Shown: positions 10,360-20,106 of the stretch, piece by piece
Position numbering within the stretch: position 1 is the stretch's first letter
Layout of the letters: the number at the start of each line of letters is the position of its first letter
Origin: Bathymodiolus heckerae thiotrophic gill symbiont
GTDB lineage: Bacteria > Pseudomonadota > Gammaproteobacteria > PS1 > Pseudothioglobaceae
Length of the DNA: 34,845 bases
Reading direction: 5' to 3'
NCBI RefSeq assembly: GCF_900128515.1
Contig: NZ_FQTP01000009.1
Location: forward strand, 1 to 34,845
Notes under the pieces: generated by a model
What the model was told of the DNA's origin: nothing
What the model saw: only the letters and a program-made list of their open reading frames with translations
Database searches by the model: none
Position numbers and translations under genes: made by a program

Positions 10360-10403
10360 ACCCATGAAGGGTTTATTTCTATATTGCAAATCATGAGGTT
10401 TGC
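10360..10403 (+). promoter_or_regulatory. Two further hairpins in the glnK1 leader
   Basis: ACCC (10360-10363) pairs with GGGT (10369-10372) and is followed by a U-rich run (TTTATTTCT), a weak terminator candidate just after ANTAR hairpin P2. GCAAATC (10386-10392) pairs with GGTTTGC (10397-10403) around ATGA, ending 8 bases before the ribosome-binding site. They may mediate the response to P1/P2 binding, but no stem overlaps P2 clearly. Confidence 0.4.
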
Positions 10404-10423
10404 GAGTATCAAAGGAGAGAAGT

Positions 10424-10762
10424 ATGAAATTTGTAACGGCAATTCTACGACCGCACAAATTAGATGATGTTAGAGAGGCACTTTCAGAAGTGGGCGTATC
10501 TGGCATTACTGTAACCGAAGTTAAAGGCTTTGGTCGTCAAAAAGGTCACACTGAGTTATATCGTGGCGCAGAGTATCAAATTGATTTTTTACCAAAGATT
10601 AAATTAGAAGTCGCAATAACCGCATCAAAATTAGATGAGGTTATTGAAGCAATCAGCGGTGTTGCCAGTTCTGGCAAAGTTGGTGACGGGAAAATTTTTG
10701 TATCTAATTTAGAAAAAGTGATTCGAATCCGTACTGGTGAGACGGATCAAGACGCGCTTTAA
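10424..10762 (+). CDS. glnK: P-II nitrogen regulatory protein GlnK (first copy)
   Basis: This trimeric signal protein senses 2-oxoglutarate, ATP/ADP and, via uridylylation, glutamine, and it plugs AmtB when ammonium is plentiful. I choose ATG 10424 (preceded by AAAGGAGAG at 10411-10419), not the upstream TTG at 10400, giving 112 residues, the standard length. The T-loop is intact: Tyr51 in ELYRGAEY is the uridylylation site. The C-terminal signature (GKVGDGKIFVSNLEKVIRIRTGE) is present. It lies 10 bases upstream of amtB, the usual co-transcribed pair. A second, very similar copy is at 17321. Confidence 0.96.
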   Translation: MKFVTAILRPHKLDDVREALSEVGVSGITVTEVKGFGRQKGHTELYRGAEYQIDFLPKIKLEVAITASKLDEVIEAISGVASSGKVGDGKIFVSNLEKVIRIRTGETDQDAL

Positions 10763-10772
10763 GGAGTAAAAA

Positions 10773-12050
10773 ATGAAAAAATTATTATTAACATTATTGG
10801 CTTTAATGCCAATGACTGTGTTTGCCGAAGGTTTGGATGGTGCAAATACTTCATGGATTCTAACTTCTACTGCGTTAGTTTTATTTATGACATTGCCAGG
10901 CTTAGCCTTGTTCTATGGTGGCTTGGTTCGAACTAAAAATATCTTATCAGTATTGATGCAATGTTTTGCTATTGCTGGATTGGTATCGATTTTATGGCTA
11001 GTTGCTGGTTACTCGATTGCATTTGCAGATGGAAATGCATACTTTGGTAGCTTGTCAAAATTTATGCTAATTGGCGTGACTGAGGGATCTTTAAGTGGTG
11101 ATATTCCTGAAAGTTTATTTGCATTATTTCAAATGACATTCGCGATTATTACACCAGCACTAATTATTGGTGGTTTTGCGGAGCGTATGAAGTTTTCAGC
11201 GGTATTGCTATTTAGTGCAATATGGCTAATTGTGGTTTATGCGCCAATTACTCACTGGGTATGGGGTGGCGGCTGGCTACAAGAAATGGGTTTATTAGAC
11301 TTTGCGGGCGGTACTGTGGTTCATATTACTGCAGGTGTTGCAGCATTGGTGGCAGCAATTGTGATTGGCCCTAGAGCGGGCTTTCCAAATAAGCCGATGC
11401 CACCACACAACATGACCATGACTATTACTGGTGCAGCAATGCTATGGGTAGGTTGGTTCGGCTTTAATGGTGGATCGGCACTAGCTGCAAACGGCGATGC
11501 AGCAATGGCCATGTTGGTGACGCATATTTCAGCAGCAGCAGGTGCAATGACTTGGATGTTCTATGAATGGATTAAGTATGGCAAGCCAACTGCATTAGGT
11601 GCAGTAACTGGTATGGTTGCTGGACTGGGTACGATTACTCCAGCGTCAGGCTTTGTTGGCCCAGCTGGCGGCTTAGTGATTGGTATTGTTGCTGGTATCG
11701 TGTGTTTTAATGCAGTTATTTTGATTAAGCAAAAATGGAAAATTGATGATGCGTTAGATGTTTTTCCAGTGCATGGTGTGGGCGGAATTATCGGCACATT
11801 AATGGCAGCAGTTTTTGCTTCTGATCAGCTAGGTGTATTCTCTGGCCAAGGTTTGGCAGAGGGTATGACTATTATGTCCCAACTTCAGGTGCAAGCAATT
11901 GGTGTTACGGCAACGTTCGTTTATACAGCTATTGCAACCTATATTATTCTAAAGGTCGTTGGTATGATTACCGGCTTAAGAGTAAGTGCTGAAGAAGAGC
12001 AACAAGGTTTAGATATTGTCTCTCATGAAGAAAGAGGTTACGATTTATAG
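10773..12050 (+). CDS. amtB: Ammonium transporter AmtB (first copy)
   Basis: Inner-membrane trimeric channel for ammonium. The 425-residue protein has a cleavable signal peptide (MKKLLLTLLALMPMTVFA), which is common in proteobacterial AmtB, and eleven predicted spans. The twin pore histidines are in LDFAGGTVVHITAG and DVFPVHGVGG. The recruitment-site Asp is in the first of these. The Phe-gate segments (ALFQMTFA and WFGFNGGS) are conserved. The C-terminal cytoplasmic tail, which contacts GlnK, is intact (EEEQQGLDIVSHEERGYDL). A strong terminator follows. The ribosome-binding site is AAGGAG, ending 5 bases before the ATG. Confidence 0.96.
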   Translation: MKKLLLTLLALMPMTVFAEGLDGANTSWILTSTALVLFMTLPGLALFYGGLVRTKNILSVLMQCFAIAGLVSILWLVAGYSIAFADGNAYFGSLSKFMLIGVTEGSLSGDIPESLFALFQMTFAIITPALIIGGFAERMKFSAVLLFSAIWLIVVYAPITHWVWGGGWLQEMGLLDFAGGTVVHITAGVAALVAAIVIGPRAGFPNKPMPPHNMTMTITGAAMLWVGWFGFNGGSALAANGDAAMAMLVTHISAAAGAMTWMFYEWIKYGKPTALGAVTGMVAGLGTITPASGFVGPAGGLVIGIVAGIVCFNAVILIKQKWKIDDALDVFPVHGVGGIIGTLMAAVFASDQLGVFSGQGLAEGMTIMSQLQVQAIGVTATFVYTAIATYIILKVVGMITGLRVSAEEEQQGLDIVSHEERGYDL

Positions 12051-17045: not shown

Positions 17046-17099
17046 CACCATTTAAATCAATTTTTAAAAAAATGATGCACATTTATTTATTAAAGTAGT

Positions 17100-17105
17100 T
17101 ATAAT
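17100..17105 (+). promoter_or_regulatory. -10 box of glnK2-amtB2
   Basis: A perfect TATAAT. Transcription would begin near 17112, two bases before the first base-paired position of the ANTAR-type leader. The -35 region (around 17077-17083) is poor, as in many activated promoters. Confidence 0.55.
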
Positions 17106-17113
17106 TATTTTTA

Positions 17114-17156
17114 GTTAGAGCCCAAAGGCGGGATTTGACAACAAACATAGACGTTT
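17114..17156 (+). promoter_or_regulatory. ANTAR-type dual-hexaloop RNA element in the glnK2 leader
   Basis: Hairpin P1: 17114-17123 (GTTAGAGCCC) pairs with 17130-17139 (GGGATTTGAC), ten positions with one G-A mismatch, around loop AAAGGC. Hairpin P2: AAAC (17143-17146) pairs with GTTT (17153-17156) around loop ATAGAC. Both loops are six bases with A1 and G4. The loop and 3' strand of P2 are also the start of the 5' arm of the following terminator (17151 onward), so P2 and terminator exclude each other. This is the arrangement established for ANTAR antitermination (EutV, NasR). Confidence 0.8.
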
Positions 17157-17201
17157 ATTTAAATTCTTTTTCAACTAGGATTTAAATAAACGTTTTTTTT
17201 T
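17151..17201 (+). terminator. ANTAR-controlled intrinsic terminator in the glnK2 leader
   Basis: A perfect 14-bp stem, ACGTTTATTTAAAT (17151-17164) with its complement at 17180-17193, 15-base loop, then nine Ts (17193-17201). It lies about 120 bases upstream of glnK2, so it would stop leader transcription unless hairpin P2 forms. Confidence 0.9.
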
Positions 17202-17221
17202 GCATGCTTCATGAGGGAGTG

Positions 17222-17281
17222 ATGTATAAAGTGGTATTGATGCCAGTTAATTTTATTTGCAATTATGCAAGTGGAAGTTAA
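17222..17281 (+). CDS. Possible 19-residue leader peptide
   Basis: GAGGGAG (17213-17219) lies just before ATG 17222, which opens a frame MYKVVLMPVNFICNYASGS ending at TAA 17279-17281. The frame runs through the 5' arm and loop of the second terminator and stops inside its 3' arm. A translating ribosome would therefore block that terminator. The spacing between GAGGG and ATG is short. The composition (VVLMPV) is not an obvious nitrogen sensor. Speculative. Confidence 0.3.
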   Translation: MYKVVLMPVNFICNYASGS

Positions 17282-17295
17282 CTGGCATTTTTTTT
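17240..17295 (+). terminator. Second intrinsic terminator in the glnK2 leader
   Basis: ATGCCAGTTAA (17240-17250) pairs perfectly with TTAACTGGCAT (17278-17288), followed by eight Ts. The 27-base loop holds an inner hairpin (TTGCA/TGCAA). It lies only 25 bases before the glnK2 start codon, so it too must be bypassed for the operon to be expressed. Confidence 0.85.
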
Positions 17296-17302
17296 GGTTT
17301 AA

Positions 17303-17665
<363 letters not shown>

Positions 17666-17675
17666 GGAGGACGGG

Positions 17676-18887
17676 ATGGAAAATACAATTTTAGAAATGC
17701 AATTTGCACTTGATACATTTTATTTCTTAATGATGGGTGCATTGGTTATGTGGATGGCAGCGGGATTCTCGATGCTTGAAGCAGGTATGGTTCGTAGTAA
17801 AAATACAGCAGAAATTTTAACAAAAAATATCGGATTATTTGCGATTGCTTGTACAACTTACATGGTTTATGGCTATGATGTGATGTATGGTGGCGGTATT
17901 TTATTAGACGGCATTAGTGGTGCGGGCGATAAATACTCAAACGCTTCTGATTTCTTCTTCCAAGTAGTATTTGTAGCAACAGCCATGAGTATTGTTTCGG
18001 GCGCGGTTGCTGAGCGTATGAAGTTATTCTCATTCTTCGCTTTCGCTGTTGTCTTTACCGGCATCATTTATCCAATGGAAGGTGCTTGGACATGGGCTGG
18101 CGAAGCTGTATTTGGTTTGTACACGTTATCTGACTTAGGTTTCTCTGACTTTGCTGGTTCAGGTATTGTGCATATGGCTGGCGCTGCAGCAGCATTAGCA
18201 GGTGTTATTGTATTGGGTGCTCGTAAGGGTAAATACAACAAAGATGGCTCATCAAATGCGATTCCAGGTGCGAATATGCCATTAGCAACATTAGGTACAT
18301 TCATTTTATGGATGGGTTGGTTTGGTTTTAATGGTGGTTCAGTATTAGCAATGGCTAGTAAAGAGAGTGCCAATGCAGTTGCAATGGTATTTTTGAATAC
18401 TAATGCAGCAGCAGCTGGTGGTGTTATAGCGGCGTTAATCCTAGTTAAATTACTATGGGGCAAGGCAGATCTTACAATGGCACTCAATGGCGCATTAGCT
18501 GGTCTTGTTGCTATTACCGCCGGACCTGATACACCAACTGCATTAGAAGCAACTTTAATCGGTGCTGTAGGCGGGTTGTTAGTGGTATTCTCAATTTCGA
18601 CATTAGATAAAGTGTTCAAAATTGATGATCCAGTAGGTGCAATTTCAGTACACGGTGTGGTTGGTTTATGGGGTTTACTAGCAGTACCATTAACTAATTC
18701 AGGCGTATCATTCAGTGGCCAATTGGCTGGCGCAGGTACAATCTTTGTTTGGGTGTTTGGTACATCAATGGTGTTATGGTTAGTGTTGAAAGCTATAATG
18801 GGTGTTAGAATCTCTGAAGAAGAAGAATACACAGGCTCAGATATTGTTGAATGTGGATTAGAGGCTTATCCAGAATTTACAAAATAA
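17676..18887 (+). CDS. amt: Ammonium transporter Amt (second copy, different subfamily)
   Basis: A 403-residue polytopic Amt/Mep/Rh protein that has no cleaved signal peptide, unlike the first copy. The pore histidines are conserved in SDFAGSGIVHMAG and DDPVGAISVHGVVG, and the FGFNGGS segment is present. The C-terminal cytoplasmic tail (GVRISEEEEYTGSDIVECGLEAYPEF) is intact, so regulation by GlnK is likely. The low overall identity to the first Amt suggests different affinity or acquisition rather than recent duplication. The ribosome-binding site is AAGGAGG. Transcription ends at a terminator at 18949. Confidence 0.95.
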   Translation: MENTILEMQFALDTFYFLMMGALVMWMAAGFSMLEAGMVRSKNTAEILTKNIGLFAIACTTYMVYGYDVMYGGGILLDGISGAGDKYSNASDFFFQVVFVATAMSIVSGAVAERMKLFSFFAFAVVFTGIIYPMEGAWTWAGEAVFGLYTLSDLGFSDFAGSGIVHMAGAAAALAGVIVLGARKGKYNKDGSSNAIPGANMPLATLGTFILWMGWFGFNGGSVLAMASKESANAVAMVFLNTNAAAAGGVIAALILVKLLWGKADLTMALNGALAGLVAITAGPDTPTALEATLIGAVGGLLVVFSISTLDKVFKIDDPVGAISVHGVVGLWGLLAVPLTNSGVSFSGQLAGAGTIFVWVFGTSMVLWLVLKAIMGVRISEEEEYTGSDIVECGLEAYPEFTK

Positions 18888-18928: not shown

Positions 18929-18973
18929 AAAAATTATTAATAATTTTTAACCCCGCCTAGTGAGGGGTTTTTT
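18929..18973 (+). terminator. Palindrome and terminator after amt2
   Basis: A perfect 20-bp AT palindrome (18929-18948) directly precedes an intrinsic terminator: AACCCC (18949-18954) pairs with GGGGTT (18964-18969) across nine bases, with T tract 18968-18973. Confidence 0.85.
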
Positions 18974-19060
18974 GGTATCAAAACCTTAATATTATTATTT
19001 TTATTTATGTAGAATAGTTTTTTAGAAAGACGAGAGTGTTTAATAAAAAAAGGAGAAAGT

Positions 19061-19504
19061 ATGATTGTTCAAGATATTATGACAACCAATGTAAAGACGG
19101 TATCCCCAGATCAGCCAGTTAAGGATATTGCACTAATGATGATTATGGATCATATTAGTGGTGCTCCAGTTGTAGATACAGAGAATAACTTAGTTGGTAT
19201 TATTTCTGAAAAAGATATTTTGCAACACATGTTTCCAGACCTTGGGGAAATCATGAGCGATACACATTTTGATTTTGAAAATATGGAAACAAACTATAAA
19301 GATACCATGAATGCTAAAATTAGTGACATCATGACAGACGGCGTAGATAGTATTGATGTTGATATGCCATGCCTAAAAGCAGCCAGCACTATGTGGCTTA
19401 GAAAATATCGTAGAATTCCAGTAACTAAACAAGGTAAGTTAATTGGCATTATTAGTATTGGTGATGTGCATAGAGCAATTTTTAAATCATGTATGACTTC
19501 ATAG
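19061..19504 (+). CDS. Two-CBS-domain protein
   Basis: A 147-residue cytoplasmic protein made of two CBS motifs (IMTTNVKTVSPDQPVKDIA... and IMTDGVDSIDVDMPCLKAA...), a Bateman module that usually binds adenosine nucleotides. The linker (DLGEIMSDTHFDFENME) is acidic. It has no fused catalytic domain, so it probably regulates another protein. It has its own ribosome-binding site (AAAGGAGAAAG) and an extended -10-like TGTAGAAT about 45 bases upstream. It lies between amt2 and the ANTAR regulator, 17 bases before the latter, which suggests a role in energy or nitrogen signalling. That is inferred from position. Confidence 0.85.
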   Translation: MIVQDIMTTNVKTVSPDQPVKDIALMMIMDHISGAPVVDTENNLVGIISEKDILQHMFPDLGEIMSDTHFDFENMETNYKDTMNAKISDIMTDGVDSIDVDMPCLKAASTMWLRKYRRIPVTKQGKLIGIISIGDVHRAIFKSCMTS

Positions 19505-19521: not shown

Positions 19522-20106
19522 ATGAATATAGCACTTAAAATCATCCTAGTGGATGAAAACTCCGGGCGTTCTGCTATGTTGCGTAGAGCCTTACAAGACA
19601 AAGGCCATGAAGTGATTTGTCGTATGAGTAGTAGCTCTCAATTGCAAGATAGTAATGAAATGACACATGCAGATGTGGTTATTGTTAATGCGGATATTCC
19701 AGATGAAGAGGTTTTTGCAAATCTAACGGATATTAATAAAACCAAACCAAAGCCAATTGTCATGTTTACTGAAGAGTCTAACTCTGAGATGGCTAATTCT
19801 GCTATTAAATCAGGCGTTAATGCCTATATTGTAGATGGCCTTGAAGAGGGTAGGGTGCAGCCAATTATTGATGTTGCCATGGCACGTTTTAGAGAATTTC
19901 AGGCGCTTAAAGATGAATTAGATGCAACACGCAGTCAATTGTCGGAGCGTAAGGCTGTTGAAAAGGCTAAAGGTTTATTAATGAAGCATAAAGGCATTAA
20001 TGAAGATGAGGCTTATCAGTCACTACGTAAGATGGCTATGGATAAAAATAAGCGTATTGTTGATGTGGCTGAAAGCGTCATTAATGCGTTTGAATTGCTA
20101 GGCTAG
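19522..20106 (+). CDS. nasT: NasT-like response regulator with ANTAR RNA-binding domain
   Basis: A 194-residue antiterminator. The N-terminal receiver-like domain (1-125) is followed by a coiled-coil linker and a C-terminal three-helix ANTAR domain (about 135-194: ERKAVEKAKGLLMKHKGINEDEAYQSLRKMAMDKNKRIVDVAE), which binds paired hexaloop hairpins and prevents terminator formation. The match to NasT is strong (PIVMFTEE, AIKSGVNAYIVDG, PIIDVAMARF). The phosphoacceptor Asp position is Asn56 (VIVNADIP), so phosphorylation control is unlikely. NasT proteins are usually held by a NasS nitrate sensor; no nasS is nearby. The two glnK-amtB leaders upstream carry candidate targets. It ends the plus-strand block. 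Confidence 0.93.
   Translation: MNIALKIILVDENSGRSAMLRRALQDKGHEVICRMSSSSQLQDSNEMTHADVVIVNADIPDEEVFANLTDINKTKPKPIVMFTEESNSEMANSAIKSGVNAYIVDGLEEGRVQPIIDVAMARFREFQALKDELDATRSQLSERKAVEKAKGLLMKHKGINEDEAYQSLRKMAMDKNKRIVDVAESVINAFELLG

Follow-up and report, generated by a model that had tools for sequence, protein, structure and literature searches.

A putative two-gate ANTAR-controlled transcription attenuator in the glnK2-amtB2 leader of a Bathymodiolus thiotrophic symbiont and its relatives

The glnK2-amtB2 operon of the thiotrophic gill symbiont of Bathymodiolus heckerae is preceded by a 5' leader that we interpret, with a probability of roughly 0.87, as an ANTAR-controlled transcription attenuator, composed of two gates in series and having a NasT-like protein as its ligand. 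The stretch of DNA analysed, hereafter the window, comprises 34,845 nucleotides of contig NZ_FQTP01000009.1; the relevant features are collected in Table 1. This kind of switch is known. Antitermination by an ANTAR dimer at a pair of hairpins was shown for EutV (PMC3369931), and the same mechanism is summarised for NasT in PMC6759348. ANTAR elements were predicted before P-II and ammonium-transporter genes by Ramesh et al. 2012 (PMC3369931), and nirA of B. diazoefficiens carries a NasT hairpin, while a nasT mutant of that species expresses less glnK2 (PMC6759348). The tandem arrangement is not wholly unprecedented either, since PMC3369931 also lists 13 elements spread over 6 transcription units in Desulfotomaculum acetoxidans.

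Table 1. Leader elements and neighbouring genes of glnK2-amtB2 in the window.
Feature	Position	Strand	Description	Basis
Promoter, sigma-70-type	17076..17105	+	TGCACA, 18 nt, TATAAT	promoter reading
P1a hairpin	17114..17139	+	GUUAGAGCCC[AAAGGC]GGGAUUUGAC; hexaloop with A1 and G4	folding; covariation
P2a hairpin	17143..17156	+	AAAC[AUAGAC]GUUU; hexaloop with A1 and G4; proposed antiterminator	folding; rare compensatory variants (L051, L055)
Terminator 1, intrinsic	17150..17201	+	14 perfect bp (~18 with G-U), T9 tract	-17.3 kcal/mol, z -8.2; conserved in relatives
P1b hairpin	17201..17226	+	five-base loop AUGAG in the window, hexaloop AAAGNN in other genera	folding, comparison
P2b hairpin	17232..17245	+	UGGU[AUUGAU]GCCA; hexaloop with A1 and G4	relatives keep GGY[AUWGAR]GCY
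Terminator 2, intrinsic	17238..17296	+	AUGCCAGUUAA (17240-17250) with UUAACUGGCAU (17278-17288), then U8	-27.3 kcal/mol, z -7.5; conserved
glnK2	17321..17665	+	P-II nitrogen regulatory protein	PF00543
amtB2	17676..18887	+	ammonium transporter, marine subtype	PF00909; TIGR03644, 616 bits
CBS-domain protein gene	19061..19504	+	in many relatives located downstream of amtB2 and ahead of the ANTAR gene	PF00571; synteny
ANTAR gene	19522..20106	+	NasT-like regulator, pseudo-receiver and ANTAR domain; proposed ligand of both modules	PF03861, 72.3 bits

Direct reading of the window agreed base for base with the preliminary description of 17100-17201, in which two hairpins with hexaloops AAAGGC and ATAGAC were placed just after a TATAAT box and the second hairpin was said to share bases with a perfect 14-bp terminator ending in nine Ts. 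All of these elements are where they had been reported: the -10 box occupies 17100-17105, the loops lie at 17124-17129 (P1a) and 17147-17152 (P2a), the terminator arms ACGTTTATTTAAAT (17151-17164) and ATTTAAATAAACGT (17180-17193) pair without a mismatch along 14 bp, the nine Ts are 17193-17201, and bases 17151-17156 are common to P2a and the 5' arm of terminator 1. The RNA of the full leader was predicted to fold into P1 and the terminator (-27.7 kcal/mol, z -7.0), and a transcript cut before the 3' arm of the terminator into P1 and P2. P2a alone comes to 0 kcal/mol and has no stable fold, an instability that fits a protein-dependent antiterminator but is no proof of one. The definition of ANTAR-target RNAs in PMC3369931 comprises two stem-loops of at least 3 bp with a short linker, hexaloops with A1 and G4, a P2 that overlaps an intrinsic terminator, stem covariation, and an ANTAR gene in the same genome. 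The leader has the two stem-loops and short linker, both hexaloops in its first module, the overlap at 17151-17156 and again, in the second module, at 17240-17245, and covariation in P1a, and the genome has one ANTAR gene. Using a scan for the complete arrangement of dual hexaloops and overlapping terminator, on both strands of the window and on 100 dinucleotide-preserving shuffles, we recovered a single plus-strand site (the leader at 17114-17201), none on the minus strand of the window, and one match in the 100 shuffles (p ~0.01).

Conservation argues against chance much more strongly than this p value. We collected 37 glnK2 leaders, including that of the window, from Thioglobus, SUP05, Ruthia, Vesicomyosocius and Bathymodiolus symbionts. 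According to the preliminary description, a lack of hairpin covariation in related genomes would have spoken against its reading; in P1a, covariation is strong over 33 distinct relatives: 82.7% of cells are paired, two-sided changes occur in 9 of 10 pairs, and the covariation score is 0.617, against 0.231 for shuffled and at most 0.287 for slid alignments. The loop G4 is found in 37/37 leaders in P1a and likewise in 37/37 in P2a, and position 1 is A in 29/37 and 35/37, respectively, and G in the remainder. Because the loop finder accepted only loops with A/G in the first and G in the fourth position, the meaningful point is the presence of such loops, correctly located, in every leader; in a gapless alignment of P1, the G4 column is invariant. 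Terminator 1 overlaps P2a in nearly all 37 leaders. The P2a pairs are mostly invariant, with rare exceptions in L051 (AAGC/GCTT) and L055 (AGGT/ATCT), in which the two arms of P2 and the terminator arm that matches them have changed in concert, a pattern to be expected if two mutually exclusive structures draw on the same bases.

Directly 3' of terminator 1 lies another ANTAR-like module that also has a terminator (17201-17296), so that the earlier list of elements, correct for the first module, had missed the second. Bases 17240-17245 are common to P2b and the 5' arm of terminator 2, and P2b keeps A1 and G4 and overlaps terminator 2 in 34 of the 37 leaders. In the window P2b has a hexaloop of this type (AUUGAU) and P1b lacks a hexaloop, which other genera have; the five-base P1b loop is a feature of the window's genus. 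An alternative P1b, UAU[AAAGUG]GUA (17225-17236), was rejected: it overlaps P2b and is not conserved. It is conceivable, and in our judgement rather unlikely, that ANTAR recognition is confined to the first module and that the second hairpin pair with terminator 2 serves as a simple backup terminator or responds to another input, such as the ribosome or another protein. The five-base loop would fit such a division, as would the covariation of P2b, which was not above control, and the score of the window's second module (9.4 bits, E 3) under R2, a covariance model made from the second modules that other genera have in their glnK2 leaders. Against it stand the retention of A1, G4 and the terminator overlap in most leaders, and the finding that R2 detects the same second module, with P1b hexaloops AAAGNN, before nirB in several genera, directly after module 1 (E 6e-8 to ~0.05; 0.02 in the symbiont's own genome). 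Module 2 has, furthermore, decayed in L048 and L055 (Vesicomyosocius), where amt2 was not found; in the latter, the P2 pairing of module 1 is kept through compensatory changes. On balance we hold that the second module is probably real and, throughout the clade, ANTAR-like, although the window itself supports it less strongly.

The mechanism proposed for the two modules is transferred from EutV and NasT by structure and conservation. Transcription would start near 17112, and by default P1a, predicted and conserved, would form, terminator 1 would fold and transcription would end; polymerases leaking past terminator 1 would meet terminator 2. An active ANTAR dimer on the P1a and P2a hexaloops would keep 17153-17156 in P2a and thereby block terminator 1, and a second dimer at P1b and P2b would likewise block terminator 2, allowing glnK2-amtB2 to be transcribed. 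Two serial gates may make for less leak and a sharper response. ANTAR elements near ribosome-binding sites have been published (PMC3369931, PMC8164766), and the site might accordingly control translation, or the processing of the transcript, in place of antitermination; with both P2 hairpins overlapping the 5' arms of T-tract terminators, and the glnK2 ribosome-binding site (~17308-17315) lying outside both modules, we consider this extremely improbable.

Rfam gave no family at or above its gathering score, and the matches listed at E<=10 included no ANTAR family; a covariance model (R1) was therefore built from the glnK2 leaders only. The covariance-model search that the preliminary description had proposed was thus carried out with our own model. 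At E<=0.01, R1 had no match outside the family in a sample of 274 gammaproteobacterial genomes. In the symbiont's own genome, R1 identified two strong sites, the window and a leader at G000:C10 (32.2 bits, E 2.9e-4), and its matches within the window other than 17116-17158 were at chance level. This second double leader (G000:C10:17847-17890; L125 5848-5891, minus strand) also has two modules; it precedes nirB, narK and a PP2C/Ser-Thr kinase gene and adjoins genes of molybdenum-cofactor type, and the same nirB leader is present in many other genomes of the family. The same ANTAR protein would act on this similarly built leader before nirB-narK. These results also bear on a reading without any ANTAR protein, in which the glnK2 leader is an attenuator that works constitutively or does no more than end the transcript of the gene before it. 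Strong terminators in an intergenic position and the lack of an Rfam match would be compatible with that explanation, but the promoter stands directly ahead of P1, selection strongly preserves the pairs of P1, which lies 5' of the terminator, dual hexaloops of the same type are found again ahead of nirB-narK and other genes, and the model is confined to a family that carries the ANTAR gene. We regard it as very unlikely.

In genus g5, R1 sites were found before serC, serB, the class I fructose-bisphosphate aldolase gene, and a gene for a 94-residue protein of no assigned family that is followed by a response regulator. Those before the aldolase gene, serC and the 94-residue protein gene are single modules (L127, L145, L130, L147, L148, L150, L159), whereas serB (L132 1200-1480, L146) is preceded by a glnK2-like double leader and a short ORF (MNIVTIVTQAK and a stop in L132). 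This ORF resembles a truncated glnK start, as if a deletion had let serB capture the leader. Carriage by phages was considered and dropped: searches of viral contigs, with the P2a core pattern and with GlnK2, brought up no ANTAR leader that was convincing (best R1 E 0.025).

The arrangement of the operon in the window appears to place the regulator on a transcript of its own. In most relatives, as in the window, the -10 box stands a short and similar distance ahead of P1. By eye, a probable intrinsic terminator (CCCC...GGGG and six Ts) can be recognised at about 18951-18974, downstream of amtB2 and ahead of the CBS gene; a loop of more than 8 is the probable reason why the terminator scan did not report it. 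Since this element would split amtB2 from the CBS and ANTAR genes, the ANTAR gene is probably transcribed separately. The window also contains a second P-II/amtB pair, glnK1 with a conventional amtB (10400-12050), around which the R1 search returned nothing convincing.

The preliminary description had placed an ANTAR protein 2.3 kb downstream, and the gene does begin there. A profile search identified it as the sole ANTAR domain in the genome (E 1.5e-20). The protein, encoded at 19522-20103, is 81-95% identical within the family, and many genomes show its gene linked to ligA, glnK2-amtB2 and tatC. Together with the dual hexaloops, the mutually exclusive P2 and terminator, the covariation of P1 and the copy before nirB-narK, this single gene supports the original reading of an ANTAR leader. 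The receiver domain aligns with those of EutV and Rv1626, and has Asn56 at the position of their phospho-acceptor Asp, which the EutV type of receiver requires; Asn occupies this position in 53 of the 55 sequences that cover it, and the conserved receiver Lys is replaced by Asp105. The partner that would make this protein the NasT of a NasS-NasT pair was likewise not found: a NasS-type protein (PF13379) was absent from 12/12 genomes of the genus, 12 of 14 control genomes being positive, and matches in some other genera were weak and mostly below cut-off. With no usual phosphorylation of the receiver and no NasS partner found, the activating signal must arrive another way.

In enterobacteria, the same glnK-amtB operon, with the same need for nitrogen responsiveness, is controlled by NtrBC and sigma-54; here, by contrast, a sigma-70-type promoter is followed by attenuators. 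GlnD is encoded in 12/12 genomes of the genus, and the symbiont's own genome has both GlnD and PII. No sigma-54 was detected in 10 of the 12, the symbiont's own genome included, nor any full-length NtrC in the latter, where the best NtrC match covers no more than the receiver. The usual PII-NtrBC-sigma-54 route to glnK-amtB thus appears to be missing, which would make the ANTAR attenuator a natural candidate for the output. One might hypothesize that the ANTAR protein is controlled by PII/GlnD nitrogen status.

The preliminary description had called the leader textbook, a term that is not quite right, as two modules stand in series and the regulator has neither the phosphorylatable receiver of EutV nor a NasS sensor. 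With the EutV, NasR and AmiR attenuators (PMC3369931) it shares two short stems, hexaloops with A1 and G4, a variable linker, the overlap of P2 with the terminator, and an ANTAR gene in the genome; it differs in having two modules in series, throughout the Thioglobaceae, before glnK2-amtB2 and nirB-narK, in allowing A or G at loop position 1, and in the P1b loop of the window's genus. The NasS-NasT system (PMC3795266, PMC5424462, PMC6759348) similarly combines a receiver-ANTAR protein with nitrite reductase, nitrate transporter and nitrogen-gene targets, whereas the present regulator has no NasS-type protein detected in its genus and shows linkage with glnK2-amtB2, not with nas genes. The ANTAR domain of Klebsiella NasR is close (4akk; KMAMDKN motif) and the nasF leader is also an attenuator, but NasR has a fused nitrate-sensing NIT domain where a pseudo-receiver is found here.

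A search of the literature found no paper on ANTAR control in the Thioglobus/SUP05 group, and the clade-wide double leader, its regulon, and a regulator lacking both NasS and a site for phosphorylation are new as far as the literature searched shows. It is possible, although we advance it tentatively and with more doubt than conviction, that in the Thioglobaceae a NasS-less, non-phosphorylatable NasT-like protein acting on double-gated leaders has replaced NtrBC and sigma-54 as the expression output of nitrogen status, perhaps reading it directly from PII, and that the regulon has spread in some lineages to the serine-synthesis genes serC and serB and to fructose-bisphosphate aldolase. The question thereby posed is what activates an ANTAR protein of this kind. 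Two serial attenuators of the same logic would also provide a natural case for the effects of a double gate on leakiness and sharpness. The SUP05/Thioglobus bacteria and their relatives among mussel and clam symbionts are important in oxygen-minimum zones and at vents, and for them these observations suggest a concrete, testable regulator and regulon, covering ammonium uptake, nitrite reduction and nitrate/nitrite transport, where control by NtrC and sigma-54 seems to be absent.
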